Shown one piece after another: positions 1 through 64,000 of a stretch of 64,000 nt of DNA; position 1 is the first letter of the stretch, and each line of letters opens with the position of its first letter. Position numbers and translations under genes: made by a program. This stretch comes from Janibacter indicus. Its GTDB lineage: Bacteria; Actinomycetota; Actinomycetes; Actinomycetales; Dermatophilaceae. The notes under the pieces were generated by a model, which was not told the origin of the DNA, did not search any database, and worked only from the letters and a program-made list of their open reading frames with translations. Location of the stretch: the NCBI RefSeq assembly GCF_900176385.1, contig NZ_FWXN01000001.1, positions 186,001 through 250,000 of the forward strand. Direction: 5' to 3'.

Positions 1-3000
1 GGAGGACCTCGCGTCGTCCCGTGGCCAGCACCTCGCCGGTGATGACGTCCACACCTGCGGCGACGAGCTCGTCGACGAGCGACGGGGCGAGCGCACCGAT
101 CGCGCGGACGCGCACGTCGCCGGCGCGGGAGGCGCGCGCGACGAAGGCCGCGTCGTCCTCGCGCACGACCTGCACGTGGCCGATGCTCGACGGGAGGTCG
201 AGGCCTGTCGCCGCCGAGACGACGACGTGGGCACCGGTGAGCGTGGCCGCGGCGACGAGGCGCAGCAGCTCGACGACACGCGTGCCGTCACCGGCGCGCA
301 CGAGCACCCGCGGGTGCGGGCGGTAGCGGAAGACATTGGACTCCACGACGAGGGCGCTCTCGTCGTGCTCGACGCCGAGCTCGTCGGCCCAGGCGGCCGC
401 GTCGCTGGCGAGTGCCGCGTCGAGCCACGCCCGCTCGTCGTCGCCGACCGAGGAGCCGAGGGTGGCCAGCTGGGCGTCGACGGTGGCGCGGACCGCGGTG
501 GCGACGGGTGCCCCCTTCGTCGGCAGGCCGGCTGCCGACCACGTGCCGAGCTGCGCGACGTAATTGGGGCCGCCGGCCTTGGCGCCGGGACCGATGGAGC
601 TGGCCTTCCACCCACCGAAGGACTGGCGGCGCACGATGGCGCCGGTGATGTGCCGGTTGACGTAGGCATTGCCGACGGCGACCGTCTCGGTCCAGTGGGC
701 GATCTCGCCCTCGTCGAGGCTGTGCAGGCCTCCGGTGAGGCCGAAGTCGGTGGCGTTCTGCAGCTCGATCGCCTCGTCGAGCGAGTCGGCGCGCATCAGG
801 CCGAGGACCGGGCCGAAGACCTCGGTGAGGTGGAAGAAGGACCCCTGGCGCACGCCGTCCTTGACGCCCGGCGACCAGAGCCGGCCGGTGTCGTCGAGCT
901 GGCGCGGCTCGACGAGCCACGACTCGCCCGGCTCGAGGGTGGTGAGGGCGCGACGCAGCTTGCCGGTCGGCTCCTCGATGACCGGACCCATGCGGGTGCC
1001 CAGGTCGGCGGGCCAGCCGACGGCGATCGACTCGACGGCGTCCACGAGCTGGCGGCGGAAGCGCTCCGACGTGCCGATCGAGCCGACGAGGATGCCGAGG
1101 GAGGCGGCCGAGCACTTCTGGCCGGCGTGGCCGAAGGCCGAGCTGACGAGGTCGGCGACCGCGAGGTCGATGTCGGCGGAGGGGGTGATGACCAGGGCGT
1201 TCTTGCCGGAGGTCTCGCCGAGGACGCGGGCGCCGTGCTCGCGCCCGGCACGCCAGCCGGCGAAGAGTCGCGCGGTCTCGCTCGCGCCGGTGAGCACGAC
1301 GGCGTCGACGTCCGCGTGCGCGACGAGGTGCTGACCCACCTCGTCCTCGTCGGTGCGCACGACGTGCAGCACCTCGCGGGGGATGCCGGCGTCGTGCAGC
1401 GCGGCGACGGTGACCTCGACGCAGACGGGGGTCTGCGGGGCGGGCTTGATGACGACCGCGGACCCGGCGGCAAGCGCCGCGAGGACGCCACCGATCGGGA
1501 TGGCGACGGGGAAGTTCCACGGCGGCGTCACGAGCGTCAGGGCGAAGGGGGTGAAGCTCGCCCCGTCGACCATGGCCCCGTCCTCGAGCTCGAGGGCCCG
1601 GTCGGCGTAGTAGCGGGCGAAGTCGACCGCCTCGGAGATCTCGGGGTCGGCCTCGGCGACGGTCTTGCCGGCCTCGGCGGCCATGACCGCGAGGATCTGC
1701 TCGCGGCGGGAGTCGATCTCGCGAGCAGCCTTGCGCAGCAGGTCTGCTCGCTCGGCGACGGGGCGGGCCGCCCAGCCCTCGTGCGCGGTGCGCGCCGTGG
1801 CGACGACCTCGTCGACCTGGGCGGTGCTCGTCAGGTGCGGGGAGGTCGGCTCCGGCCGGGGCGCGGCGACGGCGCGAGCGGCCCACGCGCGGTGGCCGGG
1901 CAGGGCGGCGTCGGAGTCGGGCGTGTTGTCGAAGGTGTCACCGATCGGCGGGCGCTCGGCGGAGCGGCGCGGCCCGAGGGGCGTGCTGCCGATGGCCTCG
2001 ACGCTCGCCCGGAAGCGGGCCTCCTGGTCGGGGATCGCCGCGGCGTCCTCGGAGAAGAAGGCGTGGATGTAGTTCTCGGGGGAGGCGCTCTCCTCGAGAC
2101 GCCGCACGAGGTAGGAGACCGCGGCGTCGAAGTCCTCGGGGGCGACGACCGGGGTGTAGAGGATGACCGTGCCGACCTCGTCGCGCACGGCGCGCGCCTG
2201 TGCGGGCGACATGCCTTGGAGCATCTCGATGTCGAGGCTGTCCTGGGCCCCGCGGTCGGTCGCGAGCAGGTGCGCCGCGGCGACGTCGTAGAGGTTGTGC
2301 GAGGCGACACCGATGCGCAGGGCGCCGACGGCGTCGGGCCGCAGCGCCCGCTCGACGCAGCGCAGGTAGTTGGCGTCGACGTCGGCCTTGGTCGTGTAGG
2401 GGGCCTGCTCCCAGCCGTGCATGACGGCCTCGACGCGCTCCATTGCGAGGTTGGCGCCCTTGACGAGGCGCACCTTGATCGGGGCGCCGCCGGCGGCGCG
2501 ACGGGCGACGGCGAAGTCGATGAGCCGCTCGAGGGCGGGCAGGGCGTCGGGCAGGTAGGCCTGCAGGACGATGCCGGCCTCGAGGTCGTGGAACTGCGGC
2601 TCGGAGAGCATCCGGGTGAAGACCTCGATGGTCATCTCGAGGTCGCGGTACTCCTCCATGTCGAGGTTGACGAAGGAGTGCGGGGTCGACGCCTTGGCGG
2701 TCTCGTAGAGCGGACGCAGCCGGGTCAGGCAGCGCTCGACGGTGCCCTCGGTGTCCCACGTGCTGATCTGGCTGACGAGCGAGGAGACCTTGATCGAGAC
2801 GTAGTCGACGTCGGGTCGCTCGAGCAGCTCGCGGGTGCGCTCGGTGCGGCTGGCGGCCTCGCCCTCGCCGAGCACGGCCTCGCCGAGGAGGTTGATGTTG
2901 AGGCGGAAGCCGTCCTCGCGAGCCGCGGCCAGGTGCTTGCCGAGCCTGGGGTCGCGGGCGTCGACGAGCAGGTGGCCGACCATCTGCTTCATCCGGGCGC

Positions 3001-3358
3001 GGGCGGCGGGCACGACGACCTTGGGCGCGATGCGCGCGGCGCGGGCGCCCAGCCCGAGCAGGCCACGGTCGACCCGGCCGAGGAAGGAGGCCGAGTCCGA
3101 GGCGGTGATCCGGCTGAGGGCATTGGCCGCGACCCGGTCGTCCTCCGGCCGGGCGACGCGGTCGACGAAGAAGACGGCCATGTCGAGGCCGGCGTGGTCG
3201 GACAACAGCGCGGCGAGCTGACCGGTCGACTGCGCCTCACGCATGGTCTGACCGGCGTGGGCGGCGGCGGCCCAGCGGTCCGCGAGCCGCACCGCGTCCT
3301 CGACGAAGGGGGCGAAGGCGGCAGTGGCCGGGTCGGTGTGCGTGGGGGTGGTCGTCAT
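1..3358 (-). CDS. putA: Bifunctional proline dehydrogenase / glutamate-semialdehyde dehydrogenase, 3' end beyond the window
   Basis: Oxidises proline to glutamate in two steps: an FAD-dependent proline dehydrogenase and an NAD-dependent semialdehyde (P5C) dehydrogenase. 1119 codons are in the window with no stop before the left edge, so only a short C-terminal piece is missing by family length (about 1150). The first half carries the PRODH barrel, with a stretch reading LRLVKGANLAMERVEAV. The second half is an aldehyde dehydrogenase with the catalytic cysteine in AGQKCSAA (around 1100-1125). The ATG at 3358 has a -10-like TACCGT 6 nt upstream and no Shine-Dalgarno, so a leaderless start is likely. 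It is divergent from a PucR-type regulator. The long plus-strand ORF opposite is a shadow. Confidence 0.93.
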   Translation of the reverse strand, partial: MTTTPTHTDPATAAFAPFVEDAVRLADRWAAAAHAGQTMREAQSTGQLAALLSDHAGLDMAVFFVDRVARPEDDRVAANALSRITASDSASFLGRVDRGLLGLGARAARIAPKVVVPAARARMKQMVGHLLVDARDPRLGKHLAAAREDGFRLNINLLGEAVLGEGEAASRTERTRELLERPDVDYVSIKVSSLVSQISTWDTEGTVERCLTRLRPLYETAKASTPHSFVNLDMEEYRDLEMTIEVFTRMLSEPQFHDLEAGIVLQAYLPDALPALERLIDFAVARRAAGGAPIKVRLVKGANLAMERVEAVMHGWEQAPYTTKADVDANYLRCVERALRPDAVGALRIGVASHNLYDVAAAHLLATDRGAQDSLDIEMLQGMSPAQARAVRDEVGTVILYTPVVAPEDFDAAVSYLVRRLEESASPENYIHAFFSEDAAAIPDQEARFRASVEAIGSTPLGPRRSAERPPIGDTFDNTPDSDAALPGHRAWAARAVAAPRPEPTSPHLTSTAQVDEVVATARTAHEGWAARPVAERADLLRKAAREIDSRREQILAVMAAEAGKTVAEADPEISEAVDFARYYADRALELEDGAMVDGASFTPFALTLVTPPWNFPVAIPIGGVLAALAAGSAVVIKPAPQTPVCVEVTVAALHDAGIPREVLHVVRTDEDEVGQHLVAHADVDAVVLTGASETARLFAGWRAGREHGARVLGETSGKNALVITPSADIDLAVADLVSSAFGHAGQKCSAASLGILVGSIGTSERFRRQLVDAVESIAVGWPADLGTRMGPVIEEPTGKLRRALTTLEPGESWLVEPRQLDDTGRLWSPGVKDGVRQGSFFHLTEVFGPVLGLMRADSLDEAIELQNATDFGLTGGLHSLDEGEIAHWTETVAVGNAYVNRHITGAIVRRQSFGGWKASSIGPGAKAGGPNYVAQLGTWSAAGLPTKGAPVATAVRATVDAQLATLGSSVGDDERAWLDAALASDAAAWADELGVEHDESALVVESNVFRYRPHPRVLVRAGDGTRVVELLRLVAAATLTGAHVVVSAATGLDLPSSIGHVQVVREDDAAFVARASRAGDVRVRAIGALAPSLVDELVAAGVDVITGEVLATGRREVL

Positions 3359-3364
3359 CCTTCG

Positions 3365-3370
3365 ACGGTA
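3365..3370 (-). promoter_or_regulatory. Leaderless -10 element of putA
   Basis: On the minus strand TACCGT lies 6 nt before the putA ATG, the spacing at which transcription begins on the start codon. The same arrangement recurs at many genes in this window. No transcript data support it. Confidence 0.5.
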
Positions 3371-3392
3371 GGACGCCGCGGTGGTCGGTGCC

Positions 3393-5562: not shown

Positions 5563-6429
5563 TCAGCGGGGGAGCAGTCGGTCGCAGACCTCGACGATCC
5601 GACGACGAAGGGAGTTGGACGTCACCATGAGCTCTCGCTGGCGGGCGACGTACTCGGCCTTGCCCTCGGGCGTCTCGATGGTCACCGGGTCCAGCCCGAG
5701 CCCCGACACGTCGTAGGGCGAGGCCTGCATGTCCAGCCGTCGCACCCGCAGGGCGTGCCGGAAGGCGTCGAGGGTCACCTCCGACGGCATCGCCGGCGCG
5801 AGCTTGAAGGCCCACTTGTAGGTGTCCATGCCCGCGTGCAGGCAGGCCGGCTGCTCGTGGTCGGCTTGGTCCTCACGCGTCGGGCGAAGGGTGTTGCGCC
5901 CCACCGCATCCGGCGTGAAGAAGCGGTAGGCGTCGTAGTGGCTGCAGCGGATGCGGTGACCCTCGACGACCGCATCGGTCGCCTCCTGCGCCAGGCGAAG
6001 GGGGAGCTGCTCGTGCCGCTGCTCGCCGGGCTGGAGGCGGTAGACCATCGCCCACTCGTGCAGGCCGAAGCAGTCGTGGGTGCCGGGGCGCGACAGGGTC
6101 GCCGTGAGCAGGTCCCTGACGAAGGTGACGGTCCGCCCCCTTCGCCCGACGAAGTCGTCGACGTCGAGGCGGGCGCTGCCGTCCGAATCCACCGTGTAGC
6201 CGGAGCGCCCGGTGTAGACGTCGGCGGCGTCGAGCAGGGTCATGTCGGGTCCCGGGTGCCAGCGGCGCAGGTGCGACGGGCGGTGGGCGTAGTACTCGAA
6301 GAGGAAGTCCTCGACCGCGTGGCGCTCGCCGCGTCCCCGCCGGTCACGGTGGGCGGCCGTCAGCTCGTCGACCGCCGCTTCGTGGGCCCGCGCACGAGCA
6401 CGCCACTCGTCACGGGTCAGGGTCGTCAT
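5563..6429 (-). CDS. Protein of the actinobacterial family labelled 3-methyladenine DNA glycosylase
   Basis: 288 aa. The sequence (ERHAVEDFLFEYYAHRPS, LRRWHPGPD, CFGLHEWAMVYR, RCSHYDAYRFFTPDA) fits a conserved actinobacterial family that databases commonly call 3-methyladenine DNA glycosylase. No helix-hairpin-helix or other classic glycosylase motif is obvious, so the function is weakly supported. The start is ATG 6429, preceded by TAGCCT at 8 nt (leaderless type). It is divergent from the FAH-family gene with only 35 bp between starts, and probably heads an operon with the DUF1353 gene. Confidence 0.65.
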   Translation of the reverse strand: MTTLTRDEWRARARAHEAAVDELTAAHRDRRGRGERHAVEDFLFEYYAHRPSHLRRWHPGPDMTLLDAADVYTGRSGYTVDSDGSARLDVDDFVGRRGRTVTFVRDLLTATLSRPGTHDCFGLHEWAMVYRLQPGEQRHEQLPLRLAQEATDAVVEGHRIRCSHYDAYRFFTPDAVGRNTLRPTREDQADHEQPACLHAGMDTYKWAFKLAPAMPSEVTLDAFRHALRVRRLDMQASPYDVSGLGLDPVTIETPEGKAEYVARQRELMVTSNSLRRRIVEVCDRLLPR

Positions 6430-7590: not shown

Positions 7591-7620
7591 CTCCCTTCGT
7601 CACAGCGGCGAAGGGGGGAG
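7591..7620 (+). terminator. Hairpin terminator after ynfA
   Basis: CCCTTCG and CGAAGGG arms (7 bp) flank a 9-nt loop directly after the ynfA stop. No T-tract follows, as is usual in high-GC actinobacteria. Confidence 0.55.
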
Positions 7621-9000: not shown

Positions 9001-9043
9001 GTGACGGGTACCCCCTTCGTCGCGGCGATACGATCGGCGCATC

Positions 9044-10588
9044 ATGAGCCACTCCTCTGCACCGACCGAGCCCACCGCCCCTCGCCTGCGCGTCGCGCCG
9101 TCGCCCACCGGCGACCCGCACGTCGGCACCGCCTACATGGCCCTGTTCAACCTCGCCTTCGCGCGACAGCAGGGTGGCCAGTTCGTCCTGCGCATCGAGG
9201 ACACCGACCGGGCGCGGTTCAACGAGACGAGCGAGCAGCAGCTCTACGACACCCTCGGCTGGCTCGGGCTGCGGTGGGACGAGGGGCCCGACGTCGGCGG
9301 CCCCTACGCGCCCTACCGGCAGAGCGAGCGCCTCGAGACCTATCGGCCCTACGTCGACAAGCTCATCGAGGACGGCCACGCCTACTACTGCTGGTGCTCC
9401 ACCGAGCGCCTCACCGCGATGCGCGAGAAGCAGCAGAAGCTCAAGCTGCCCACCGGCTACGACCGCCTGTGCGTGGGCAAGACGCGTGAGGAGCGGGCCG
9501 AGCTCGAGGGCTTCAACGAGACCCCGGTCGTGCGCATGCTCGTGCCCGACGACGCGCCGACGACCTTCGAGGACGTCATCCGCGGCACCGTCTCCGCGCC
9601 GCGTCCCGACGACCAGGTGATCCTCAAGGCCGACGGCTTCCCGACCTATCACATGGCCGTCGTCGTCGACGACCACGAGATGGGCATCACCCACGTCGTC
9701 CGCGGCGAGGAGTGGATCTCCTCGACGCCCAAGCACGTGCTGCTCTACCAGTGGCTCGGGCTGACGCCGCCGCAGTTCGCGCACATGCCGTTGCTGCGCA
9801 ACACCAACAAGTCGAAGATCTCCAAGCGCAAGAACCCCGAGGCCCGCCTCACGTGGTTCCAGGAGCAGGGCTACCTGCCCGAGGCCGTCGTCAACTTCCT
9901 CGGCCTGCTGGCCTACCCGCCGGCGAAGGGGGAGGACGGTCAGGACGTCGAGAAGTTCACCTTCGCGGAGTTCAGCCGCGACTTCGCCTGGAGCAAGGTC
10001 AACACCGTCGGCCCGATCTTCGACCTCAAGAAGCTCGAGTGGCTCAACGGCGCGTGGATCCGCGACCTCGAGCTCGAGGACTTCACCTCGCGCCTGCTGC
10101 CCTACCTGCAGGCCGACGGCGTCCTCGGCGACAACCCCTCGCTGGGGGAGCTGGCCCGGCTGAAGTCGGTCGCCGAGCTGATCCAGACGCGCATCGCGCT
10201 GCTCACCGAGGCGAGCGCCCTCGTGCGGCCCTTCTACACCGCCGACGCCGACCTGCAGATCGACGAGGACGCGCGAGCAGGCCTGAAGGACAACGCTGCC
10301 GAGGTACTCGACGCGGCGATCACCGCCCTCGAGGCGCTGCAGGTGCCGGCCGGGGTCCTCTCGCAGGAGAGCCGCGACGGCAACGAGTGGCACGCCGAGC
10401 AGATCGAGGCCACGCTGCGCGAGGTCATCGTCGATGGTCTGGGCATCAAGCCGCGCTTCGCCTTCGGCCCGCTGCGCACCGCCGTCTCGGGGGCGCGGGT
10501 CAGCCCGCCGCTCTTCGAGTCGATGGAGATCCTGGGGCAGGCGTCGACGCTCGAGCGGCTGCGCTCGCTGCGCGCCTCGCTGGCCTGA
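9044..10588 (+). CDS. gltX: Glutamyl-tRNA synthetase
   Basis: 514 aa class I synthetase that charges tRNA-Glu. It shows the HIGH-type motif HVGT (residues 26-29) in PSPTGDPHVGTAYMA, the FVLRIEDTDRAR block, a cysteine pair in YYCWCST, the GEEWISSTPKH segment and the KMSKS-equivalent SKISKRK (about 258-264). The C-terminal anticodon-binding domain covers about 340-514. ATG 9044 is used. It lies 95 bp upstream of tRNA-Gln and about 265 bp upstream of tRNA-Glu(CTC), its cognate tRNA. Confidence 0.97.
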   Translation: MSHSSAPTEPTAPRLRVAPSPTGDPHVGTAYMALFNLAFARQQGGQFVLRIEDTDRARFNETSEQQLYDTLGWLGLRWDEGPDVGGPYAPYRQSERLETYRPYVDKLIEDGHAYYCWCSTERLTAMREKQQKLKLPTGYDRLCVGKTREERAELEGFNETPVVRMLVPDDAPTTFEDVIRGTVSAPRPDDQVILKADGFPTYHMAVVVDDHEMGITHVVRGEEWISSTPKHVLLYQWLGLTPPQFAHMPLLRNTNKSKISKRKNPEARLTWFQEQGYLPEAVVNFLGLLAYPPAKGEDGQDVEKFTFAEFSRDFAWSKVNTVGPIFDLKKLEWLNGAWIRDLELEDFTSRLLPYLQADGVLGDNPSLGELARLKSVAELIQTRIALLTEASALVRPFYTADADLQIDEDARAGLKDNAAEVLDAAITALEALQVPAGVLSQESRDGNEWHAEQIEATLREVIVDGLGIKPRFAFGPLRTAVSGARVSPPLFESMEILGQASTLERLRSLRASLA

Positions 10589-11100: not shown

Positions 11101-11132
11101 CAGGGCGAAGGGGGGAGCCCCCCTTCGCCCTG
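11101..11132. terminator. Bidirectional hairpin terminator 3' of ndgR
   Basis: A perfect 15-bp stem (CAGGGCGAAGGGGGG with its complement) and 2-nt loop, 21 bp beyond the ndgR stop. It contains an inverted pair of the CGAAGGG word. Confidence 0.7.
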
Positions 11133-12023: not shown

Positions 12024-13454
12024 ATGGCTGGAACGCTGGCCGAGAAGGTCTGGGACGCACACGTCGTCCGACGCAACGACGGGGAGCCCGACCTCCTCTA
12101 CATCGACCTGCACCTCCTGCACGAGGTGACGAGCCCGCAGGCCTTCGAGGGACTGCGCATCGCCGGCCGGCCGGTCCGCCGCCCCGACCTCACGCTCGCG
12201 ACCGAGGACCACAACGTCCCGACGACGCCGGGCCCGATCACCGACCCGGTGAGCAAGGTCCAGGTCGAGACGCTGCGGGACAACTGCGCCGAGTTCGGCG
12301 TGCAGATCTATCCCATGGGTGACGCCGAGCAGGGCATCGTCCACGTCGTCGGCCCGCAGCTCGGGCTGACCCAGCCGGGCACCACCGTCGTCTGCGGCGA
12401 CAGCCACACGAGCACCCACGGCGCCTTCGGTGCGCTCGCCTTCGGCATCGGCACGAGCGAGGTCGAGCACGTGCTCGCCACGCAGACCCTCTCGCTCAAC
12501 CCCTTCAAGACCATGGCGATCAACGTCACCGGTCAGCTGCAGCCGGGCGTCACGGCCAAGGACATCATCCTCGCCGTCATCGCCAAGATCGGCACGGGTG
12601 GCGGTCAGGGCTACGTCCTCGAGTACCGCGGCGAGGCCATCGAGGCACTGTCGATGGAAGCCCGCATGACGGTGTGCAACATGTCGATCGAGGCCGGCGC
12701 CCGCGCCGGCATGATCGCGCCCGACGAGACGACCTTCGAGTACCTCAAGGGCCGTGACCACGCGCCGACGGGCGCCGACTGGGACGCCGCCGTCGAGGCC
12801 TGGCGCGAGCTGCGCACCGACGACGACGCGGTCTTCGACGCCGAGGTCGACATCGACGCCTCGACACTCACCCCCTTCGTCACGTGGGGCACCAACCCCG
12901 GCCAGGGCTCGCCCCTCGGCGAGGCCGTGCCCGACCCGGAGGCCATGGGCGACGACAACGAGCGCGTCGCTGCGGCAAAGGCACTCGAGTACATGGGGCT
13001 GACCGCCGGCACCCCGCTGCGCGAGGTCGCCGTCGACACCGTCTTCGTCGGCTCGTGCACCAACGGTCGCATCGAGGACCTGCGCGCCGCGGCCGAGGTC
13101 ATCAAGGGCCGCCACGTCGCCGAGTCCGTCCGCATGCTCGTCGTGCCCGGCTCCGCCCGCGTGCGACTGCAGGCCGAGGGGGAGGGCCTGGACAAGGTCT
13201 TCACCGAAGCCGGCGCCGAGTGGCGCCTGCCCGGCTGCTCGATGTGCCTGGGGATGAACCCCGACACCCTCGCGCCCGGCGAGCGCTCCGCCTCGACGAG
13301 CAACCGCAACTTCGAGGGCCGCCAGGGCAAGGGCGGGCGCACCCACCTCGTCAGCCCGCTCGTCGCCGCGGCCACTGCCGTGCTCGGCACGCTGTCGAGC
13401 CCGGCCGACCTCGACGCCCTGCCCGCCACCGACCTCGTCACCGAAGGGGCCTGA
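12024..13454 (+). CDS. leuC: 3-isopropylmalate dehydratase, large subunit
   Basis: 476 aa. With LeuD it isomerises 2-isopropylmalate to 3-isopropylmalate in leucine synthesis, using a [4Fe-4S] cluster. The three cluster cysteines are visible: [15 protein letters not shown] (about residues 340-354) and [12 protein letters not shown] (about 402-413). The N-terminal [15 protein letters not shown] and TEDHNVPT blocks are typical. ATG 12024 follows a purine-rich GAAGAGAGAG tract. leuD follows after 3 bp. The roughly 120-bp leader from ndgR holds the operator. Confidence 0.97.
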
Positions 13455-14072: not shown

Positions 14073-14104
14073 GACGAAGGGGGTGCCGCGGCACCCCCTT
14101 CGTC
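14073..14104 (+). terminator. Perfect 32-nt palindrome after leuD
   Basis: Two 16-nt arms, GACGAAGGGGGTGCCG and its exact complement, abut 21 bp after the leuD stop. The outer ends are an inverted pair of the CGAAGGG word. No T-tract follows. Confidence 0.75.
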
Positions 14105-14218
14105 GTGCCGTCCTCGTGCGGCTGCGGTCGTGACGTCACACCTTGATCCAATCCCGTTGTGCTGCAGGTCAACCCATCGCACGACGAAGGGAGGGTCACG
14201 CACCCGGCGCGGTGGGCC

Positions 14219-15442: not shown

Positions 15443-16198
15443 ATGGTCGTCCACCGCACGCACACGCCCGTGATGTACCGGGTGGCCGCCGGGCTGCTGC
15501 GTGGCGCGATGCGCGTCGTGGCCCGCTACGAGGTGAGCGGTCTGGAGCACGTGCCCGAGCAGGGCGGCTTCCTCATCACCCCCAACCACATCTCGCACGT
15601 CGACCCCTTCCCGTGGGCGCACGTGCTCTACAACCGCGGCTACAGCCCGGTCTACCTGGCCAAGAGCACGCTCTTCGACACCCCGGTCGTCGGCTGGGTG
15701 CTGCGCCACGCCAAGCAGGTGCGCGTCGACCGCGAGACCTCCACCGCCGGCGCCGCCCTCGTCCATGCCGTCCGCGCCCTCGACGAAGGGGAGTGCGTCG
15801 TCGTCTATCCCGAGGGGTCGCTCACCCGCGACCCCGACCTGTGGCCCATGCGCGGCAAGACGGGGGCCGCGCGCCTGGCGCTGCAGTCCGGTGCGCCAGT
15901 GATCCCGGTCGCGCAGTGGGGCCCGCAGGAACTGTTGCCGCGCTACGCCAAGCGGCCTCGGCTGTCGCGTCACCGCCGACTCATGCGGGTGCGCTTCGGG
16001 CCGCCCGTCGACCTGGGCGACCTGCGTGACCAACCGCTGAACGCCCCGACGGTCACCGCTGCCACGGCGCGCATCATGGCGGCGATCACCACCGAGCTCG
16101 AGGTGCTGCGCGGTGAGCGTGCGCCCGCCGAGCGCTTCGACCCGAAAGCCCATGGCCTGCGCGTCACGGGCGACTACCGATCAGGAGAGCAGTCGTGA
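15443..16198 (+). CDS. plsC: 1-acyl-sn-glycerol-3-phosphate acyltransferase
   Basis: 251 aa. Transfers an acyl chain to lysophosphatidate to make phosphatidate at the membrane. It carries the acyltransferase box NHISHVDPF (residues about 51-59; the catalytic pair is H and D of the HxxxxD pattern) and the substrate-binding VYPEGSLTRDP (about 130-140). ATG 15443 has an AAGAGGTG ribosome-binding site. Its last codons overlap gpsA by 4 bp. Pairing with gpsA, which makes the glycerol-3-phosphate backbone, supports a phospholipid-synthesis role. Confidence 0.93.
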   Translation: MVVHRTHTPVMYRVAAGLLRGAMRVVARYEVSGLEHVPEQGGFLITPNHISHVDPFPWAHVLYNRGYSPVYLAKSTLFDTPVVGWVLRHAKQVRVDRETSTAGAALVHAVRALDEGECVVVYPEGSLTRDPDLWPMRGKTGAARLALQSGAPVIPVAQWGPQELLPRYAKRPRLSRHRRLMRVRFGPPVDLGDLRDQPLNAPTVTAATARIMAAITTELEVLRGERAPAERFDPKAHGLRVTGDYRSGEQS

Positions 16199-48749: not shown

Positions 48750-49550
48750 ATGAGCACGCCGATGCTGCACGCCGTGACCTCGGGGGAGTCCGGTCCCCGG
48801 GTCGCCTTCTGCCACGGCCTCTTCGGGCAGGGCCGCAACTGGACCCAGATCGCCAAGGGCCTGGTGGACATCTGCCGCCCGACGCTGCTCGACATGCCTG
48901 ACCACGGGCGCTCGCCGTGGACCGAGCGCTTCGACTACGCCGGGGCGGCCGACCTCGTCGCCGACTCCCTTCGTGCGATCGACGACACCGAGCCGTGGAT
49001 CGTCGTCGGGCACTCCATGGGCGGCAAGATCGCCATGCTCGTGGCCCTGCGCCACCCCGAGCTCGTCGACCGGCTGTGCGTCGTCGACATCTCTCCGGCC
49101 GCGACGACGAGCTTCAGCGAGTTCGAGACGTACATCGCCGCGATGCAGGCGATGGACCTCGGCAGCATCACCACCCGTGAGCAGGCCGACGCGGCGATGC
49201 GCGAGGCCGCACCCGATCCGGGGGTGCGGGCCTTCCTCCTGCAGAACCTGCGCCGGGAGGGCGACGGCTGGCGCTGGCAGCCCAACCTCGAGGTGATCGG
49301 CCGCGACATCGCCACCATCGGCGGCTGGCCCACCGACGAGGTGGCGGGTCTCGCCCCCTTCGACAAGACGGTGCTGTGGCTCGCCGGCGAGCGATCGCTC
49401 TACGTCACCGACGACGACCTCGCCGAGATGCGACGGCTCTTCCCCCGGGTGCGGCTCGTGACCGTCAAGGGTGTCGGGCACTGGGTGCACTCCGAGGCGC
49501 CCGAGGTGACGCTCCAGGCGCTGCGGGCGCTCATCACCTCGTCGCGCTGA
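48750..49550 (+). CDS. Alpha/beta-hydrolase
   Basis: 266 aa. A YbfF/epoxide-hydrolase-like fold: VAFCHGLFGQGRNWTQIAKG (oxyanion region, about 17-36), DMPDHGRSPW, the nucleophile elbow VVGHSMGGKIAM (Ser at about 90) and the catalytic His in GVGHWVHSEAP (about 243-253). The cap covers about 120-190. The substrate is unknown. ATG 48750 lies 7 bp after ffh, so it may be cotranscribed. Confidence 0.9.
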   Translation: MSTPMLHAVTSGESGPRVAFCHGLFGQGRNWTQIAKGLVDICRPTLLDMPDHGRSPWTERFDYAGAADLVADSLRAIDDTEPWIVVGHSMGGKIAMLVALRHPELVDRLCVVDISPAATTSFSEFETYIAAMQAMDLGSITTREQADAAMREAAPDPGVRAFLLQNLRREGDGWRWQPNLEVIGRDIATIGGWPTDEVAGLAPFDKTVLWLAGERSLYVTDDDLAEMRRLFPRVRLVTVKGVGHWVHSEAPEVTLQALRALITSSR

Positions 49551-52481: not shown

Positions 52482-52943
52482 ATGGACATCTCGGCCCGAT
52501 CGGACTACGCCGTCCGCGCGATGCTCACCCTGGCCGCCTCGGGCGAAGGGGGGACACCCGTCTCCGTCGTCCGGCTGGCTGCGGAGCAGGAGCTGCCGCG
52601 CAAGTTCCTCGAGGCGATCCTCGCCGACCTGCGCCGCTCGGGGCTCGTCTCCAGCCGCATGGGCGCCAACGGCGGCTACCTCCTCGCCCGGGCCTCCGCC
52701 GACATCACCGTCGGTGATGTCATCCGCGCCGTCGACGGCCCGCTCGCCGAGGTTCGCGGGGAGCGGCCGCAGGCGACGAGCTACGAGGGGGCGGCGACCC
52801 ACCTGCGCACCGTCTGGGTGGCCGTGCGCTCGAGCGTGCGCTCCGTCCTCGACGGCACGAGCCTCGCCGACGTGCTGAGCGGTGACTTCCCCGACGCGGT
52901 CACCGAGGCGGTGGCGGCCCCCGGGGCCTGGGAGAACCGCTGA
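52482..52943 (+). CDS. Rrf2-family transcriptional regulator without cluster cysteines
   Basis: 153 aa. The N-terminal winged helix is typical of Rrf2: MDISARSDYAVRAMLTLAAS, LPRKFLEAILADLRRSGLV, SRMGANGGYLLARASADIT. The protein contains no cysteine at all, so it cannot hold an IscR/NsrR-type Fe-S cluster; it may sense a metabolite or partner protein, as the sulfur regulator CymR does. It is divergent from the TauE exporter, its likely target. The rpsP promoter begins directly after its stop. Confidence 0.9.
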   Translation: MDISARSDYAVRAMLTLAASGEGGTPVSVVRLAAEQELPRKFLEAILADLRRSGLVSSRMGANGGYLLARASADITVGDVIRAVDGPLAEVRGERPQATSYEGAATHLRTVWVAVRSSVRSVLDGTSLADVLSGDFPDAVTEAVAAPGAWENR

Positions 52944-52979: not shown

Positions 52980-53051
52980 CCCCCTTCGTACCCGTCCGCG
53001 CCGGGGATCCCTCCTGCGTGCGCCGGATGCCTACACCCCGAGCTCGATACC

Positions 53052-53955: not shown

Positions 53956-54504
53956 ATGACTTCCACGCAGGGCCACGTCGTCGCCCGCATCGGCAAGCCG
54001 CACGCGCTGCGCGGCGAGGTGACCGTCCAGCTGCACACGGACGACCCCGAGAGCCGGCTGGTGCCCGGCGCCGTCTTCGAGACGCGGGCCGAGCCCGGGT
54101 CCGGCGTGCCGCGTCGCCTCACCCTGGCGACGACGCGTGTGCACCGCGGCATCTGGCTGCTCGGGTTCGAGGAGATCCCCGACCGCACGGGCGCCGAGTC
54201 GCTGCGCGGGACCCGGCTCGTGCTGTCGGCCGACGAGCCGGACCCGACAGCCGACGACGAGGGCTGGTACGAGGCGGACCTCGTGGGCCTGACCGCGGTC
54301 GCGCCCGACGGCACCACGGTCGGCGAGGTGGTCGCGCTCGAGCTCGGCGCCGCCCAGGACCGGCTGCGACTGCGGCGACCCGACGGCAGCGAGGCGCTCG
54401 TCCCCTTCGTCGAGGTGCTCGTCCCGGAGGTCGACCCCGAGGCCGGCCGACTCGTCGTCGACGCGCCCCCCGGTCTGCTCGACATCGACGCGAAGGGGGA
54501 GTGA
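53956..54504 (+). CDS. rimM: Ribosome maturation factor RimM
   Basis: 182 aa. Assists assembly of the 30S head by binding S19. The N-terminal barrel starts VVARIGKPHALRGEVTVQLH (about 8-27) and the C-terminal PRC-like domain has EGWYEADLVGLTAVAPDGTT and ALVPFVEVLVPEVD. ATG 53956 is favoured over an upstream in-frame ATG by the -10 box and typical length. It lies 3 bp before trmD. Confidence 0.95.
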   Translation: MTSTQGHVVARIGKPHALRGEVTVQLHTDDPESRLVPGAVFETRAEPGSGVPRRLTLATTRVHRGIWLLGFEEIPDRTGAESLRGTRLVLSADEPDPTADDEGWYEADLVGLTAVAPDGTTVGEVVALELGAAQDRLRLRRPDGSEALVPFVEVLVPEVDPEAGRLVVDAPPGLLDIDAKGE

Positions 54505-54507: not shown

Positions 54508-55707
54508 GTGCGCATCGACGCCGTCTCGATCTTCCCCGACTACCTCGCGGCCCTCGACATCTCCCTCATCGGCAAGGCCCGTCGCGAGGGGATCATCGAC
54601 CTGCGGGTCCACGACCTGCGCGACTTCGCCCACGACCGGCACCGCACCGTCGACGACACCCCCTACGGCGGGGGAGCGGGCATGGTCATGAAGCCGCAGC
54701 CGTGGAGCGAGGCCCTCACGCACGTCCTCGACTCGGCGGACGAGACGACCGGCCCGGCGCCGGTGCTCGTCGTGCCCGGGCCCGGCGGTGAGCGCTTCAC
54801 CCAGGCGACCGCGCGCGAGCTCGCGCAGGCGCCCTGGCTGGCCTTTGCCTGCGGCCGCTACGAGGGCATCGACGAGCGGGTCTACGAGTGGGCGGCCGAG
54901 CGGATGCCCGTGCGGGTGGTCTCGCTCGGCGACTACGTGCTCAACGGCGGCGAGGTCGCCGTCCTGGCGATGGTCGAGGCCATCGGTCGGCTCCTGCCGG
55001 GCGTCGTCGGCAATGCCGAGTCGCTCGTCGAGGAGTCGCACGAAGGGGGTCTGCTCGAGTACCCGATCTACACCAAGCCCGCGGTGTGGGACGGCGGTGA
55101 CGGGGTCGAGCGCACCGTGCCCGACGTCCTGCTCGGCGGCAACCACGCGGCCATCGCGCAGTGGCGCCATGAGCAGCGGCTCGCCCGCACCGCCGCCCGT
55201 CGTCCCGACCTGCTGCACGTGGCGGCGACGACGGAGGAGCTCGCCGGGCTCGAGCACTCGGTCGCCACCCGGGCGGATGCCGCGGAGCTGACCGTGCTGC
55301 AGAAGGCCTGCTGGATCGAGATGGTCACGCCCGAGCAGCACTGGTGGGGCGCGCCCGCCGAGGACGCCGCGACCGTCGCCGACGACCTCGAGCACTGGAC
55401 GACGCACCTCTTCCGCTCGCAGGGGCGTCTCGTCGGATCGGTCCGGGTGCGGCGCGACCCGCAGGAGCCGACGACCTGGCAGATCGGGCGGCTCATGGTC
55501 GCGCCCGATCTGCAGGGACGCGGGCTGGGACGGGCGCTGCTCGCGCACGCCGAGGCCCTCGCCCCGGCCGACGTGCGGGCCTACTGGCTCAACACCGGGG
55601 CCGACCAGTCGCGTCTGCTGCGGCTGTACAAGAAGGCCGGGTACCGGGTGTGCGGTCCCGGCGAGTGCCCGGGCACGGTCGACCTCAGCCGTCCCGTGCA
55701 CAGGTGA
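54508..55707 (+). CDS. trmD: tRNA (guanine-37-N1)-methyltransferase fused to a GNAT acetyltransferase
   Basis: 399 aa, versus about 230-270 for TrmD alone. Residues 1-230 are a complete Trm[52 protein letters not shown] and the SAM trefoil knot [20 protein letters not shown] (about 139-158). Residues about 250-399 are a GNAT domain: [20 protein letters not shown], then [20 protein letters not shown] with the acetyl-CoA loop QGRGLG. The reading frame is continuous with no internal start with a good ribosome-binding site, so this looks like a true fusion. GTG 54508 is 3 bp after rimM. Confidence 0.93.
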
Positions 55708-55708
55708 G

Positions 55709-55738
55709 TCACCCCCTTCGTCACGAAGGGAGGGGTCA
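55709..55738. terminator. Hairpin between trmD and the convergent membrane gene
   Basis: CCCTTCGT and ACGAAGGG arms meet over a C, extended by TCACCCC/GGGGTCA-type ends. The minus-strand gene's stop codon (55736-55738) lies inside it. It serves both directions. Confidence 0.65.
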
Positions 55739-56668: not shown

Positions 56669-57361
56669 ATGTCGACCGAGCCCACCCAGGACACCAGCGC
56701 CTCGACCCCCGCCGGAGACCCGGCGGGGGTCGACGCGCGTCCGGCCCGCCGGCTCCTGCTCGAGATCGGCATCGCCGTGCTCCTCGTCGTGCTGCTGCGA
56801 GCCTTCGTCATGCAGTCCTTCCACGTCCCGAGCGGGTCGATGGAGCCGACGATCATGCCGGGCGACCGGGTCGTCGTCACCAAGATCGGCGCGGGCGAGG
56901 TGGAGCGCGGTGACGTCATCGTCTTCGACGGCACCGACACCTTCGCGGCCGCCGACCGCACCCCCTTCGCCTCCGACGGGGTCATCGGGCGCACGCTGTC
57001 CGCGATCGCCTCGACCCTGTCGATCGACCTGGGCGAGCAGGACTTCCTCAAGCGGGTCGCCGGGGTCGGGGGAGACCGGGTGACGTGCACGCCCGACGAC
57101 GGTCTGCAGGTCGACGGCCAACCCGTCGACGAGCCCTGGCTGGAGCCGGGGACGACCGCCTGCGACACCCCCTTCGACGTCACCGTCCCGCAGGGGCGCC
57201 TCTTCGTCCTCGGCGACAACCGAGGCGACTCCGCCGACTCCCGTGCCCACCTCGGTGACCCCGGCGGTGGCATGGTCCCCGTCGACGACGTCGTCGGCCA
57301 CGTGGCGTGGCGCTACTGGCCGCTGGACCGGATCGGTGGCCTCGGGGACCACGCCGGGTGA
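56669..57361 (+). CDS. lepB: Signal peptidase I (first of two)
   Basis: 230 aa. Cleaves signal peptides from exported proteins at the outer face of the membrane. One N-terminal helix (LLLEIGIAVLLVVLLRAFVM, about 31-50) precedes the catalytic Ser in FHVPSGSMEPTIMPGDRVVV (Ser at about 57) and the catalytic Lys in DFLKRVAGVGGDRVTC (about 127-142). GDNRGDSADSRAHLG (about 184-198) is the C-terminal box. ATG 56669 follows a leaderless -10 box. A second lepB follows. Confidence 0.95.
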   Translation: MSTEPTQDTSASTPAGDPAGVDARPARRLLLEIGIAVLLVVLLRAFVMQSFHVPSGSMEPTIMPGDRVVVTKIGAGEVERGDVIVFDGTDTFAAADRTPFASDGVIGRTLSAIASTLSIDLGEQDFLKRVAGVGGDRVTCTPDDGLQVDGQPVDEPWLEPGTTACDTPFDVTVPQGRLFVLGDNRGDSADSRAHLGDPGGGMVPVDDVVGHVAWRYWPLDRIGGLGDHAG

Positions 57362-58292: not shown

Positions 58293-59083
58293 CGCCCGCT
58301 CGCCGCGGGCCTCGCTCCGGGCGTGGCCTCTCCGGCAAACCCAGCCTGCGCGTCGAGCGCGAGCTGCAGCGTGCCGGGCACCGGGTGCTCGCCGGCATGG
58401 ACGAGGTGGGGCGCGGTGCGCTCGCCGGGCCGGTGAGCGTCGGGGTCGTCGTCATCGACGAGACCTGCCGCACCGCGCCGGCCGGTGTGCGCGACTCCAA
58501 GCTGCTCACGCCCGCGGCGCGTGAGGCGATGGTGCCGCGGCTGCACCGCTGGGCCCTCGGGCACGCGGTCGGGCACGCCTCGCCGGCGGAGATCGACGAG
58601 ATCGGGATCATCGCCGCGCTGCGCATCGCGGGTCAGCGGGCGCTCGGCCAGCTCGACGTGGTCCCCGACCTCGTCCTGCTCGACGGCAACCACGACTGGC
58701 TCACCGACCCCGACGAGGTGGGGCTCTTCGCCGAGCTGTCGGGTGGTGCCTCGACGCCGCCGGTGCGCACGATGATCAAGGCGGACATGCGGTGCAGCTC
58801 GGTCGCGGCGGCGAGCGTGCTGGCCAAGGTCGAGCGCGACTCCCGCATGGTCGAGCTCGCGCAGACACACCCGCACTACGGCTGGGCCGACAACAAGGGC
58901 TACTCCGCGAGTGCCCATCTCGACGCGCTCGCGGCCCACGGGCCGAGTGAGGAGCATCGCCGCTCGTGGTCCCTGCCGGGGGTGGCGGCCGTCGTGCCGC
59001 AGGCCGTGGGGGATGATGAGGTCGGACCGGGCGAGGGCCACGAGCTGCTCGCCGGCACGGTGAGCGAAGGGAGGTCCCGGTGA
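58289..59083 (+). CDS. rnhB: Ribonuclease HII
   Basis: 264 aa. Removes RNA from RNA-DNA hybrids and single ribonucleotides. The catalytic acidic residues are in [20 protein letters not shown] (about 32-51; Asp and Glu) and [11 protein letters not shown] (about 129-139), and [20 protein letters not shown] (about 164-183) is diagnostic. GTG 58289 overlaps lepB by 4 bp; the stop overlaps the DUF2469 gene by 4 bp. Confidence 0.96.
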
Positions 59084-59511: not shown

Positions 59512-59883
59512 ATGACCGAGGTGGAGCCCACACGGGCGAGCGTGGGAGCGGACGGCGAGGACTTCGCCGTGACCTTCCTGACCAGGCAGGGCATGCAGCT
59601 GCTCGACCGCAACTGGCGGTGCAGCGAGGGCGAGATCGACCTCGTCATGAGAGACGGCGACGTGGTCGTCGTCTGCGAGGTCAAGACGCGGCGCAGCCGT
59701 GCCTTCGGTGACCCCGTGCACGCGATCACCCGGGCCAAGCTCGCGCGGCTGCGTCGGCTGGCGGGGCGGTGGCTCGCCGAGCACCGGGTCGACGCCCGGG
59801 GCGTGCGGCTGGACTTCGTCGGGCTGGTCCGCGACCCCGACGGCCTCTACGAGGTCGACTTCCGGCCCGGGGTGGGGCAGTGA
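59512..59883 (+). CDS. yraN: YraN/UPF0102 nuclease-like protein
   Basis: 123 aa. The restriction-endonuclease-like core is intact: GEDFAVTFLTRQGMQLLDRN (about 13-32), then EGEIDLVMRDGDVVVVCEVK with the ExD...ExK active-site pattern (about 36-55). Its role is unproven; YraN neighbours comM and dprA in many bacteria and is suspected in DNA processing. ATG 59512 has GGAGG 9 nt upstream; an in-frame ATG at 59455 would add residues not typical of the family. Its stop overlaps comM by 4 bp. Confidence 0.9.
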   Translation: MTEVEPTRASVGADGEDFAVTFLTRQGMQLLDRNWRCSEGEIDLVMRDGDVVVVCEVKTRRSRAFGDPVHAITRAKLARLRRLAGRWLAEHRVDARGVRLDFVGLVRDPDGLYEVDFRPGVGQ

Positions 59884-61421
59884 GCATCGGGGTGACCCGC
59901 GGGGTGGCGCTGCGCGGGATCACCGGTCATCTCGTCGACATCGAGTGCCACGTCGGGCGAGGGCTCCCGGCCTTCGACATCAGCGGCCTGCCCGACGCGG
60001 CGCTGCGTCAGGCACCCCAGCGGGTGCGGGCAGCGTCGATCTCCGCCGGCTTCTCGCTCAACTCCCGCCAGCTGACGGTCAACCTGTCGCCCGCGTCGAT
60101 CCCCAAGCACGGCACGGGCTTCGATCTCGGCATCGCCGTCGCCGTCCTCGCCGCCTGCGAGGAGCTGCCGGCGGCGCTCGTACGACCCGTCGTGCACCTC
60201 GCCGAGCTCGGCCTCGACGGGCGGCTGCGGCACGTCACCGGGGTGCTGCCGGCGGTGCTCGCCGCGCAGGCCGCCGGCTGCGGGCACGTCGTCGTCGCAC
60301 CCGAGGACGTGGCCGAGGCCCGGCTCGTCGAGGGGGTGCGGGTCTCCACGGCCGGCACGCTCGGGGAGCTCGTGCTCGCCTACCGCTCGGCGCAGCGCGA
60401 GGGCGGCGGGCTCCACCCGGCCGACGAGGCATCCGTGGCGCCCAGTGGGCCGGCAGCTCGACGGCTGGACCTGGCCGAGGTGTCCGGCCAGCACGAGGCC
60501 CGCACGGCACTCATGCTCGCAGCGGCGGGCGGGCACCACCTGCTGCTCAACGGTCCACCGGGTTCGGGCAAGACGATGCTCGCCGAGCGACTCGTGACGA
60601 TCCTGCCGCCGCTGACCCGCGAGCAGGCGCTCGAGACCCTGGCCGTGCGCTCCCTCGTCGGGGTGGCACCGCCGACCGGCCTCGACGTCGTGCCCCCCTT
60701 CGTCGCGCCGCACCACTCCGCGAGCGTCGCAGCCCTCGTCGGCGGGGGCTCGGGCGTCGTGCTGCCGGGCGCGCTGTCCCAGGCGCACCACGGCGTGCTC
60801 TTCCTCGACGAGGCGGCTGAGTTCGGCAGCGCGGTGCTCCAGGCCTTGCGGCAACCGCTCGAGTCCGGGCGGGTCGTCATCGCCCGGGCCCGCGAGCGGG
60901 TGACCTACCCGGCCCGGGTCCAGCTGGTCCTCGCGGCCAACCCGTGCCCGTGCGGCGAGGGGCACGGCAAGGGACTGGCCTGCCGGTGCAGACCGACCGA
61001 GCGGCGGGCCTATGCGGCCCGGCTCAGCGGACCGCTGCTCGACCGGGTCGACATCCAAGTGCAGGTCCCCAAGGTCAGCCTGGCCGACCTCAGCGAGGAC
61101 CCACCCGACTCGAGCGAGGCGGTCGCCGCCCGCGTGCTGGCCGCCCGCGAGGTGCAGCGACGCAGGTGGGAGCCGCTCGGCTGGTCGCTCAACAGCCAGG
61201 TCCCCGGGCCGCAGCTGCGCCGCCGACCGTGGCGCCTGCCGTCGGCCACGACTGCCACGCTCGATCGGGCGCTCGACCTGGGGCAGGTGACGGTCCGCGG
61301 CTACGACCGGATCCTGAGGTTGGCGTGGACCTCGGCGGACCTCAACGGCCGTACCGTCCCGAGCCCGACCGATGTGGGTCTGGCGCTGATGTACCGCACG
61401 CAGGGCGCGGTGGCGGCATGA
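59880..61421 (+). CDS. comM: Mg-chelatase-like AAA+ ATPase (ComM/YifB)
   Basis: 513 aa. ComM is a hexameric helicase that drives branch migration during integration of transforming DNA. The N-terminal Lon-protease-like domain is at about 1-170 (HVGRGLPAFDISGLPDAALR, LTVNLSPASIPKHGTGFDL). The AAA+ core has LLLNGPPGSGKTMLAERLVT (Walker A, about 219-238) and GVLFLDEAAEFGSAVLQALR (Walker B, about 305-324). A zinc-type cysteine stretch is NPCPCGEGHGKGLACRC. GTG 59880 overlaps yraN; the stop overlaps dprA by 4 bp. Confidence 0.94.
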   Translation: MSIGVTRGVALRGITGHLVDIECHVGRGLPAFDISGLPDAALRQAPQRVRAASISAGFSLNSRQLTVNLSPASIPKHGTGFDLGIAVAVLAACEELPAALVRPVVHLAELGLDGRLRHVTGVLPAVLAAQAAGCGHVVVAPEDVAEARLVEGVRVSTAGTLGELVLAYRSAQREGGGLHPADEASVAPSGPAARRLDLAEVSGQHEARTALMLAAAGGHHLLLNGPPGSGKTMLAERLVTILPPLTREQALETLAVRSLVGVAPPTGLDVVPPFVAPHHSASVAALVGGGSGVVLPGALSQAHHGVLFLDEAAEFGSAVLQALRQPLESGRVVIARARERVTYPARVQLVLAANPCPCGEGHGKGLACRCRPTERRAYAARLSGPLLDRVDIQVQVPKVSLADLSEDPPDSSEAVAARVLAAREVQRRRWEPLGWSLNSQVPGPQLRRRPWRLPSATTATLDRALDLGQVTVRGYDRILRLAWTSADLNGRTVPSPTDVGLALMYRTQGAVAA

Positions 61422-62611
61422 GCCGGTCCCAGGTCGATGGCATCCCGACGAGTGCCGAGGTCGCTCGCGCCCACGCGATGGTCGGGTCCGACGAGCGGCG
61501 GGCGCGGGTCGCCTGGTCGCGGGTGCTCGAGCTGCGCCGCGAGCGGGTGAGCGATGCACCACACGCCCTGCAGTCCGTCCTCGCAGAGGTCGGTCACGTC
61601 GAGGCCTGGCACCGCCTTGCCGACGGCGACCTGCCCCGCTCGGCGAGTGCCCGCGCGCACGTGGTCGGGGTCGACGTCGACGGCGAGCTGGACCGCGTCG
61701 AGCGCTCGGGGGCCCGGGTCGTGATCCCGGGAGACGCCGACTGGCCCGAGGTCCTCTCGCACCCCCTCGTCTCCCCGCACCTGCTCCACGTGCGGGGGCA
61801 GGGGTCGCTCACCGACCTGTCGACCCGGGCCGTCGCCATCGTCGGTTCGCGCGCGAGCACGGGCTACGGCGAGGCCATCGCCCGGGAGATCGGGGCGGGC
61901 GCCGCGGGTCGGGGCTGGACGGTCGTGTCCGGTGCGGCCTTCGGCATCGATGCCGCGGCCCACCAGGGGGCGCTCGCCGTGCACGGGCCGGCCATCGCCG
62001 TGCTCCCGTGCGGGCCCGACCGGGTATACCCGGAGGGCAACCGGCGGCTCGTCGACGCCGTCGCCGAGCAGGGGGTCGTCATCACGGAGCTGGCCATCGG
62101 GACCGTGGGCATGCGGCACCGCTTCCTCTCGCGCAACCGGATCATCGCTGCCCTGTCGCAGGCGACGCTCGTCGTCGAGGCGGGGCTGCGGTCCGGCTCG
62201 CTCAACACCGCCGGTTGGGCCGAGGCGATGCGCCGCCCCGTCGGGGTCGTGCCCGGTCCGGTGACCCAGATGTCGTCGGCGGGCTGTCACGAGTGGATCC
62301 AGAAGCACCGCGGCAGTCTGGTCACCGACACCGCGGACCTGCTCGCCCTGGCCGGACGCGTGGGCGAGGAGGTCGACCAACCGGTCGAGCTCCTCGGTCC
62401 AGCCCGTGACCTCGACGTGCTCCGGCCGCCGCACCGCCGCATCCACGACCTACTGAGCAGCCGCAGGGGAGTCCCGGTCGGCGAGCTCGCGGTCGAGCTC
62501 GTGGTGCCGCTCGAGGAGGTGCTCGCCGACCTGGCGGAGATGTCGCTCGAGGGGTGGGTGGTGCAGGACGACACCGGCGGCTGGCGTCGCGGCCCCGGCC
62601 CGAGGCGCTGA
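61418..62611 (+). CDS. dprA: DNA-processing protein DprA
   Basis: 397 aa. Loads RecA on incoming single-stranded DNA in natural transformation. The Rossmann-like core has VAIVGSRASTGYGEAIAREI (about 139-158), WTVVSGAAFGIDAAAHQGAL (about 167-186), AVLPCGPDRVYPEGNRRLVD and FLSRNRIIAALSQATLVVEA (about 235-254). A C-terminal winged helix (DLLSSRRGVPVGELAVELVV) covers about 345-397. ATG 61418 overlaps comM. In actinobacteria it is kept even where competence is not shown. Confidence 0.95.
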   Translation: MSRSQVDGIPTSAEVARAHAMVGSDERRARVAWSRVLELRRERVSDAPHALQSVLAEVGHVEAWHRLADGDLPRSASARAHVVGVDVDGELDRVERSGARVVIPGDADWPEVLSHPLVSPHLLHVRGQGSLTDLSTRAVAIVGSRASTGYGEAIAREIGAGAAGRGWTVVSGAAFGIDAAAHQGALAVHGPAIAVLPCGPDRVYPEGNRRLVDAVAEQGVVITELAIGTVGMRHRFLSRNRIIAALSQATLVVEAGLRSGSLNTAGWAEAMRRPVGVVPGPVTQMSSAGCHEWIQKHRGSLVTDTADLLALAGRVGEEVDQPVELLGPARDLDVLRPPHRRIHDLLSSRRGVPVGELAVELVVPLEEVLADLAEMSLEGWVVQDDTGGWRRGPGPRR

Positions 62612-63614: not shown

Positions 63615-63629
63615 GCCCTGCGGGCGTCA

Positions 63630-63649
63630 CCGACCGGATGGACGGTCGG
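63630..63649 (+). terminator. Hairpin after xerC
   Basis: CCGACCG-GATGGA-CGGTCGG, a 7-bp stem 15 bp past the stop, followed by GATTCTCTC. Confidence 0.5.
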
Positions 63650-63682
63650 GATTCTCTCGACCCGGCGGCAGGGGAGGGGCGC

Positions 63683-64000
63683 TCAGGGGACGGGCAGGAG
63701 GATCACCCGGCGGGCACCGAAGAAGGTCATCGGGTCGAGGTAGGTCGGCCCGCGACGCGCACCCAGGTGGAGGCAGGCCGCGGGAGCGCAGTGCCCCGAC
63801 TCCGGCCCGATCGTGCCGATCCGCTGGCCACGCGCCACCCGGTCACCCATCGAGACGGCGGCGTCGACCGGCTCGTAGGTGCTGCGCACACCGTCGGCGT
63901 GGGTGACGCTCACCGTGCCCCGACCGGCGATCCGACCCCGATGGGTCACCACCCCGTCGGCGACCGCGGTGACCGGCGCGCCCCGCGCGGTCGACAGGTC
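63683..64000 (-). CDS. M23-family (LytM) peptidase, 5' end beyond the window
   Basis: 106 codons are in the window and the frame is open to the right edge. The sequence is the C-terminal half of an M23 beta-barrel: VTAVADGVVTHRGRIAGRGT, then VRSTYEPVDAAVSMGDRVARGQ and CAPAACLHLGARRGPTYLDP, where the HLHxxx-type metal site reads LHLGAR (His present; the first His of the usual HxH is Leu-flanked). It cuts peptidoglycan cross-bridges or, if degenerate, only binds them. The ATG at 63952 is internal, not the start. Its place between xerC and the expected rpsB is normal for actinobacteria. Confidence 0.85.
   Translation of the reverse strand, partial: DLSTARGAPVTAVADGVVTHRGRIAGRGTVSVTHADGVRSTYEPVDAAVSMGDRVARGQRIGTIGPESGHCAPAACLHLGARRGPTYLDPMTFFGARRVILLPVP

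Follow-up and report, generated by a model that had tools for sequence, protein, structure and literature searches.

Candidate DNA-uptake sequences with genus dialects in Janibacter and other Dermatophilaceae

The window analysed in this work is a stretch of 64,000 nucleotides from the Janibacter indicus genome (GCF_900176385.1, contig NZ_FWXN01000001.1, positions 186,001-250,000), in which the short word CGAAGGG recurs on both strands. The original prediction had claimed more than 60 copies of this word, an excess over chance, a nearly equal share on the two strands and a likeness to a DNA-uptake signal. Indeed, 74 copies are present, 33 on the plus and 41 on the minus strand, as compared with 10.1 ± 3.1 and at most 18 in 100 dinucleotide shuffles of the window, and a copy lies within 3 bases of each of the 15 positions that had been offered as examples. 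The base preceding the word is A or G in 56 of these copies and the base before that is G in 51; the two following bases are purines in 65 and 63 copies, respectively. The fuller motif can hence be written as G-R-CGAAGGG-R-R.

The form CGAAGGGRR is found 57 times in the window, with 36 of these words located within genes. Single words lie on the plus strand at 1543..1551, 3304..3312, 5606..5614, 5996..6004, 9924..9932, 14185..14193, 15784..15792, 17541..17549, 21432..21440, 24486..24494, 30570..30578, 31972..31980, 33179..33187, 40373..40381, 42688..42696, 47085..47093, 52544..52552, 54491..54499, 55041..55049 (inside trmD) and 59065..59073, and on the minus strand at 511..519, 6136..6144, 9011..9019, 12871..12879 (inside leuC), 20060..20068, 21096..21104, 25456..25464, 29695..29703, 31869..31877, 32953..32961, 36119..36127, 38030..38038, 38390..38398, 40060..40068, 45732..45740, 48318..48326, 48965..48973, 49354..49362, 52980..52988, 54401..54409, 56961..56969, 57168..57176 and 60694..60702. 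The window also encodes, on the plus strand, a YifB family AAA ATPase (59880..61421; TIGR00368, 441 bits), which we take to be ComM, with a role in transformation, and the DNA-processing protein DprA (61418..62611; TIGR00732, 205 bits, above cut-off), which likewise has a role in transformation.

A short word is strongly enriched on both strands throughout the source genome (G000; 3.42 Mb in 29 contigs), where CGAAGGGGG is present in 850 + 865 copies, as compared with 10 + 10 for its reversal. To describe this distribution, we used a sample of 679,596 bases in 32 stretches, window included, in which a simple purpose-written script called 635 genes (88% coding). The motif edges in this 680-kb sample are identical to those of the window, and any bias further out is weak. 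Single-base variants of the core stay near the order-3 expectation, which is itself inflated by the motif (top count 14 versus 11.5). CGAAGGGRR occurs 588 times in the sample, that is 0.87 per kb, with a range of 0.45-1.45 by stretch and a Poisson-like spread of the counts (dispersion index 1.07). The strands carry 299 plus and 289 minus copies, and this balance is homogeneous over the 32 stretches (chi2 12.9, 31 degrees of freedom), indicating that CGAAGGGRR has no local orientation. No orientation bias of the type of Chi or of the FtsK-orienting polar sequences (KOPS) was seen in the 32 stretches, in which the origin and terminus were not mapped; a replication-oriented word was rejected for these stretches.

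The excess of the word goes beyond codon choice, rare codons included. When synonymous codons were shuffled within each of the 635 genes (100 shuffles), the coding DNA, which really contains 232 sense and 313 antisense copies of CGAAGGG, retained only 81 and 107. The difference is larger for CGAAGGGGG, with 118 sense and 120 antisense copies against 11.6 and 30.9 (largest 18 and 46), or 238 versus 42.5 in total. For the reversed 9-mer, used as a control, the counts were 0 and 3 against 1.7 and 2.5, and for the reversed 7-mer 9 and 40 against 29 and 29, though the antisense count of 40 exceeds the largest shuffle, 38. It had also been noticed that GAA recurs inside the word, and this is borne out, since 108 of the 258 Glu codons in the context NNC-Glu-GGG are GAA (0.42), while the GAA share is 0.032 in NNC-Glu before non-GG codons and 0.047 overall. 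Neither a frequency matching the codon-shuffled genes nor an equal use of GAA elsewhere was found. CGAAGGGGG is denser between genes (1.21 per kb) than within them (0.40 per kb).

Among 57 CGAAGGGRR neighbours within 60 bases of each other in the 32 stretches, 54 are inverted, 33 facing and 21 back to back, and 14 of the 54 inverted pairs are within called genes. Word density reaches 5.2 per kb between convergent genes, but is only 1.9 between tandem and 1.7 between divergent ones. Six inverted pairs of the window had been named as terminators. All six are real and lie between genes with predicted hairpin folds of -13.6 to -39.6 kcal/mol, namely 7591..7617 (words 7591- and 7609+; -22.2 kcal/mol), 11106..11127 (11106+ and 11119-; -33.8), 14075..14102 (14075+ and 14094-; -34.2), 27179..27207 (27179- and 27199+; -20.6), the long hairpin 41636..41671 (41636+ and 41663-; -39.6) and 55712..55732 (55712- and 55724+; -13.6). 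They are putative terminators; no T-run is present in the printed sequences of these six pairs, and the word hairpins between genes probably also end transcription. A further inverted pair, 18096..18132 (18096- and 18124+), is situated within a called gene.

The window was aligned with its counterparts in five relatives, four Janibacter and J. melonis, and those of the 57 sites that fell in gaps were dropped. In the four Janibacter, 40/48, 31/45, 18/36 and 16/34 word sites are identical, as compared with 0.49, 0.29, 0.22 and 0.22 for same-phase flanks; in J. melonis, 11/35 are identical, with 0.20 for the flanks. Four words, at 9924..9932, 12871..12879, 54401..54409 and 55041..55049, are identical in all five relatives. 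The relatives' own word density is 0.61-0.89 per kb. The sites are more often identical than their flanks, which shows that they are favoured, and yet they turn over at a maintained density.

Three small low-GC contigs of the source genome stand apart, as CGAAGGGRR is missing from them against an expectation of 22.7 copies, though this absence should be read with the caveat that five 5-kb windows of the main sample with less than 66% GC still carry 0.56 words per kb. Bare CGAAGGG is present in five copies in these three contigs. By eye, two of the three have insertion-sequence-like genes, and L013 and L017, both without CGAAGGGRR, contain transposase-like and metal-transport-like genes; these two are probably mobile DNA.

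The word was counted in 186 genomes of the family and in 149 genomes of the order, 139 of them from other families. All 16 Janibacter genomes are rich in this word, called the first word below (396-948 per strand, lowest in G197), and so are all three genomes (651-985) of a sister genus, g5, which includes Janibacter melonis NBRC 107855 (G066) and Marihabitans asiaticum DSM 18935 (G233). In a TadA search, the genus of the source genome groups with Janibacter terrae, anophelis, limosus, hoylei and corallicola. None of the 167 other family genomes is rich, their counts being about 11-80 for the two strands combined, and in the order sample only G000 and G066 are rich, with 0/139 from other families.

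Another word, CGGCATAC, here the second word, emerged from a de novo scan of named loci; its bearers include Knoellia, Pedococcus and Phycicoccus elongatus. Genomes were sorted from the family table by copies on both strands, those with 400 or more being called rich. On this scale, 106 of the 186 family genomes, in 30 genera, are rich in CGGCATAC, a further 14 have 150-399 copies, and 47 carry neither word; outside the family, 0/139 genomes are rich. No family genome is rich in both words: the 19 first-word genomes hold at most 41 copies of CGGCATAC, and the first word never exceeds 72 copies in the 106 CGGCATAC-rich genomes. The second word shows the same traits in P. elongatus (G304, 200 kb), with 182 copies (84/98 by strand), 135 in coding DNA versus 13.5 after codon shuffling, densities of 0.77 per kb inside genes and 1.83 outside, a fuller motif C-R-CGGCATAC-S and close pairs inverted in 5/6 cases. 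In G247, 30 coding copies are found versus 3.2 shuffled. In the family table, reversing CGGCATAC mostly lowers the count more than fourfold. Neither motif is a palindrome. The two words share their start, a soft purine followed by an invariant CG, which may be due to chance.

Other forms are rarer. In one locus (L144) of a Dermatophilaceae metagenome-assembled genome, CGGCATCC, which may be a variant of the second word, replaces CGGCATAC with 36 copies in 21 kb versus 3.3 expected. De novo scans of nine word-less genomes (40-80 kb each) revealed no third dialect, with nothing near the positive controls; the strongest words were CCTGCGCGA in G300 (27 versus 3.9 in 80 kb; L180-L182, L114), a weak candidate in a word-less genus, and CGTACGCC in G136 (27 versus 5.0). 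The dialects track genus. In the TadA tree, both first-word clades and J. massiliensis form one supported clade, within which the order of the three is not settled, so a single origin of the first word is not established. Janibacter sp. HTCC2649 (L178) groups with Knoellia by TadA and bears the second word; its genus name therefore looks wrong.

As for the machinery, the source genome has comEA and comEC, together with a tad-1 cluster composed of TadZ, A, B, C, Flp, TadE-like and TadG-like genes (names given by eye, after PMC4322843). In Micrococcus luteus, tad genes and comEC are required for transformation (PMC4322843). We compared 57 tad-1 loci, of which 11 have the first word, 18 the second, 1 the variant and 27 none; the status of each was assigned from a single locus of about 16-21 kb, and weak bearers may therefore be misclassified. 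We recovered the fast-changing TadG-like gene from 8/11 first-word, 5/18 second-word and 5/27 word-less loci, and some genes at the flanks, such as one resembling biotin synthase (by eye), accompany first-word loci only. In G197, which has the fewest words in Janibacter, the tad-1 locus (L112) contains about 4 kb of extra DNA between flp and tadC, at about 4300-8500.

Collectively, these traits, as far as they can be read from sequence, match those of known uptake sequences, and we consider it probable that the two words serve as DNA-uptake sequences of an actinobacterial family. It also seems likely that Janibacter, Knoellia, Pedococcus and their kin evolved these sequences independently of Neisseriaceae and Pasteurellaceae, that a single-membrane Flp-pilus machine reads them, and that they form at least two exclusive, genus-isolating dialects with an outright switch toward Janibacter and Marihabitans. 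In such a mechanism, a surface DNA receptor of the competence machine, presumably linked to the pilus, would prefer double-stranded DNA with G-R-CGAAGGG-R-R. The machine itself would consist of the Flp/tad pilus, ComEA and ComEC, with DprA and RecA inside the cell. DNA of the same lineage would be preferentially taken up and recombined, so that alleles holding the motif would spread by molecular drive and the word would accumulate on both strands wherever the protein code allows. Opposed words between genes could then form hairpins that probably also end transcription. The taste of the receptor would have changed within the family, with CGAAGGG in Janibacter and the Marihabitans clade and C-R-CGGCATAC in 30 other genera. 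To our knowledge, uptake sequences with dialects are the only known kind of word that unites these traits.

Uptake sequences have so far been described only in Neisseriaceae and Pasteurellaceae, two Gram-negative families. The DNA uptake sequences (DUS) of Neisseriaceae are motifs of about 10 bases in thousands of copies, with dialects in one family, some genomes without any DUS, many inverted pairs and a CTG core common to the dialects (PMC3630211). The words described here resemble them in the short motif, the family dialects, the word-less genomes, the inverted pairs and, perhaps by chance, a short shared part, the soft purine and CG. On the other hand, the neisserial CTG core is found in neither motif nor its complement, and the two main Dermatophilaceae words share far less than the DUS dialects do. 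Moreover, the bearers are Actinomycetota with one membrane and a Flp/tad pilus, unlike Neisseriaceae with their type IV pilus and ComP. The uptake signal sequences (USS) of Pasteurellaceae carry flanking A/T tracts, unlike the Janibacter word, which is G+C-rich and lacks such tracts. The uptake motifs of both Gram-negative families are about 9-12 nt long and highly enriched, and a type IV minor pilin, ComN/PpdA, is the candidate USS receptor, as reported in PMC12616744; a short motif with strong genome enrichment is thus common to USS and the Janibacter word. The tad cluster, comEA/comEC and dprA are also shared with the Flp-pilus transformation system of Micrococcus luteus, but the term 'uptake sequence' is used 0 times in that paper (PMC4322843).

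Chi, KOPS, the highly iterated palindrome HIP1 and the repetitive extragenic palindromic (REP) units are likewise short and frequent chromosomal words. However, Chi and KOPS are oriented, HIP1 is palindromic and REP units are longer with conserved stems; we know of no genus dialects of non-palindromic words for any of them. We found no report of such words in Actinobacteria in the open-licence literature of PubMed Central (PMC). If the uptake reading is true, the two known families would be joined by a third from another phylum, whose members have one membrane and a different pilus, and self-recognition at uptake would have evolved repeatedly. Since a single family here combines two strongly divergent dialects with many word-less genomes, it would offer a fresh system for studying the origin of such words and the change of receptor specificity. 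Natural transformability of these bacteria, and the DNA tag that makes it work, would also be predicted.

Among the alternatives, the one that survives best, although unlikely, is a genus-specific, genome-wide site for a chromosomal protein of the nucleoid, of segregation or of repair, unrelated to uptake. The even spread of the word and its absence from the three small contigs would also fit such a chromosome mark, and word-less genomes retain the uptake genes. Nevertheless, no regional or orientation pattern is seen in the 32 stretches, unlike matS, KOPS and parS, which have such patterns, and both the inverted pairs and the density between convergent genes speak against it. Furthermore, the replacement of one word by the other between genera and the 47/186 genomes with neither are hard to fit with an essential chromosome protein. 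It is quite improbable that a modification or repair enzyme maintains the words, as HIP1-like or methylation-linked ones. Indeed, an asymmetric word of 7-9 bp could be a methylation site and the cyanobacterial HIP1 is likewise a very frequent chromosomal word, but the words studied here are not palindromic, and their hairpin pairs and dialect pattern match uptake sequences better.

Less probable still is a Chi-like word that steers RecBCD recombination. RecC (PF04257) was found in 4/4 tested CGAAGGG-bearing genomes, but it was not found in 3/5 tested CGGCATAC-bearing genomes, very rich ones among them (G017, G122, G241), and was found in 4/6 tested word-less ones. Chi is oriented with replication in E. 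coli, whereas the word has no orientation bias in any stretch and forms inverted pairs. RecC is patchy in the family, being present in 10/15 genomes tested, and its presence does not follow the second word. Finally, the chance that codon use, base composition or terminator hairpins produce the word as a side effect is negligible. Codons do account for part of the CGAAGGG excess, with 188 expected among the 545 coding copies, and close inverted pairs are mostly found between genes, but the CGAAGGGGG excess persists in coding DNA, most words of the window are within genes and the 167 other family genomes hold few copies; a codon or composition effect was rejected by the codon-aware model and the family comparison.

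Returning to the role in DNA uptake, several results weigh against it. A tad-1-type TadA is present in 182/186 family genomes at E 1e-60 (174 at 1e-90) and a ComEC match in 180/186, all 47 word-less ones included, while the remaining six genomes, drafts of 58-95% completeness, lack a ComEC match, and five of them bear the second word. Both proteins, being near-universal in the family, were rejected as markers of the word. Consequently, although comM and dprA, cited earlier in favour of uptake, are indeed in the window, their presence is weak evidence, and since word-less genomes also have the machine genes, these permit an uptake role but do not prove it. In the 57 loci, none of the genes around tad-1 occurs only in bearers of the two words, and no receptor was found there. 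In G247, CGGCATAC is sparse (36 in 200 kb) and no denser between genes. The reversed control of CGGCATAC is high in g79 (564/578 versus 223/230) and in three g3 genomes (about 3 to 1), being only about 2.5- to 3.2-fold lower in these. No report of Janibacter transformation was found in the open-licence PMC literature. Damage to comEC, lastly, is not clearly associated with word loss, with 5/47 word-less versus 1/33 bearing genomes affected (p 0.39), or about 9/125 bearing ones when weak or split domain matches are counted (p 0.53).

Within genera, four genomes without their kin's word were compared with 14 bearing congeners, of which one has a broken comEC (G034), giving p 0.019; when the three bearing congeners with weak or split domain matches (G252, G267, G276) are added as broken, the figure becomes 4/17 and p 0.088. 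Of the four genomes lacking the word of their kin, G226 has comEC matches in two frames, the match of G255 is limited to residues 5-393, which may reflect the assembly, and the comEC of G154 (Arsenicicoccus piscis) looks intact. In the fourth, J. massiliensis (G211), about 27.7 kb containing phage-like genes interrupt comEC (L253 9114-20000, L254 1-11153). This species has neither word and shares a TadA clade with the first-word genera; it may never have had the word. By eye, a serine-recombinase-like gene adjoins one of its comEC fragments, followed by terminase-, tape-measure- and endolysin-like genes. In the word-less G299 (C1 849902-896120), the comEC match is split by about 44 kb and contains stops.

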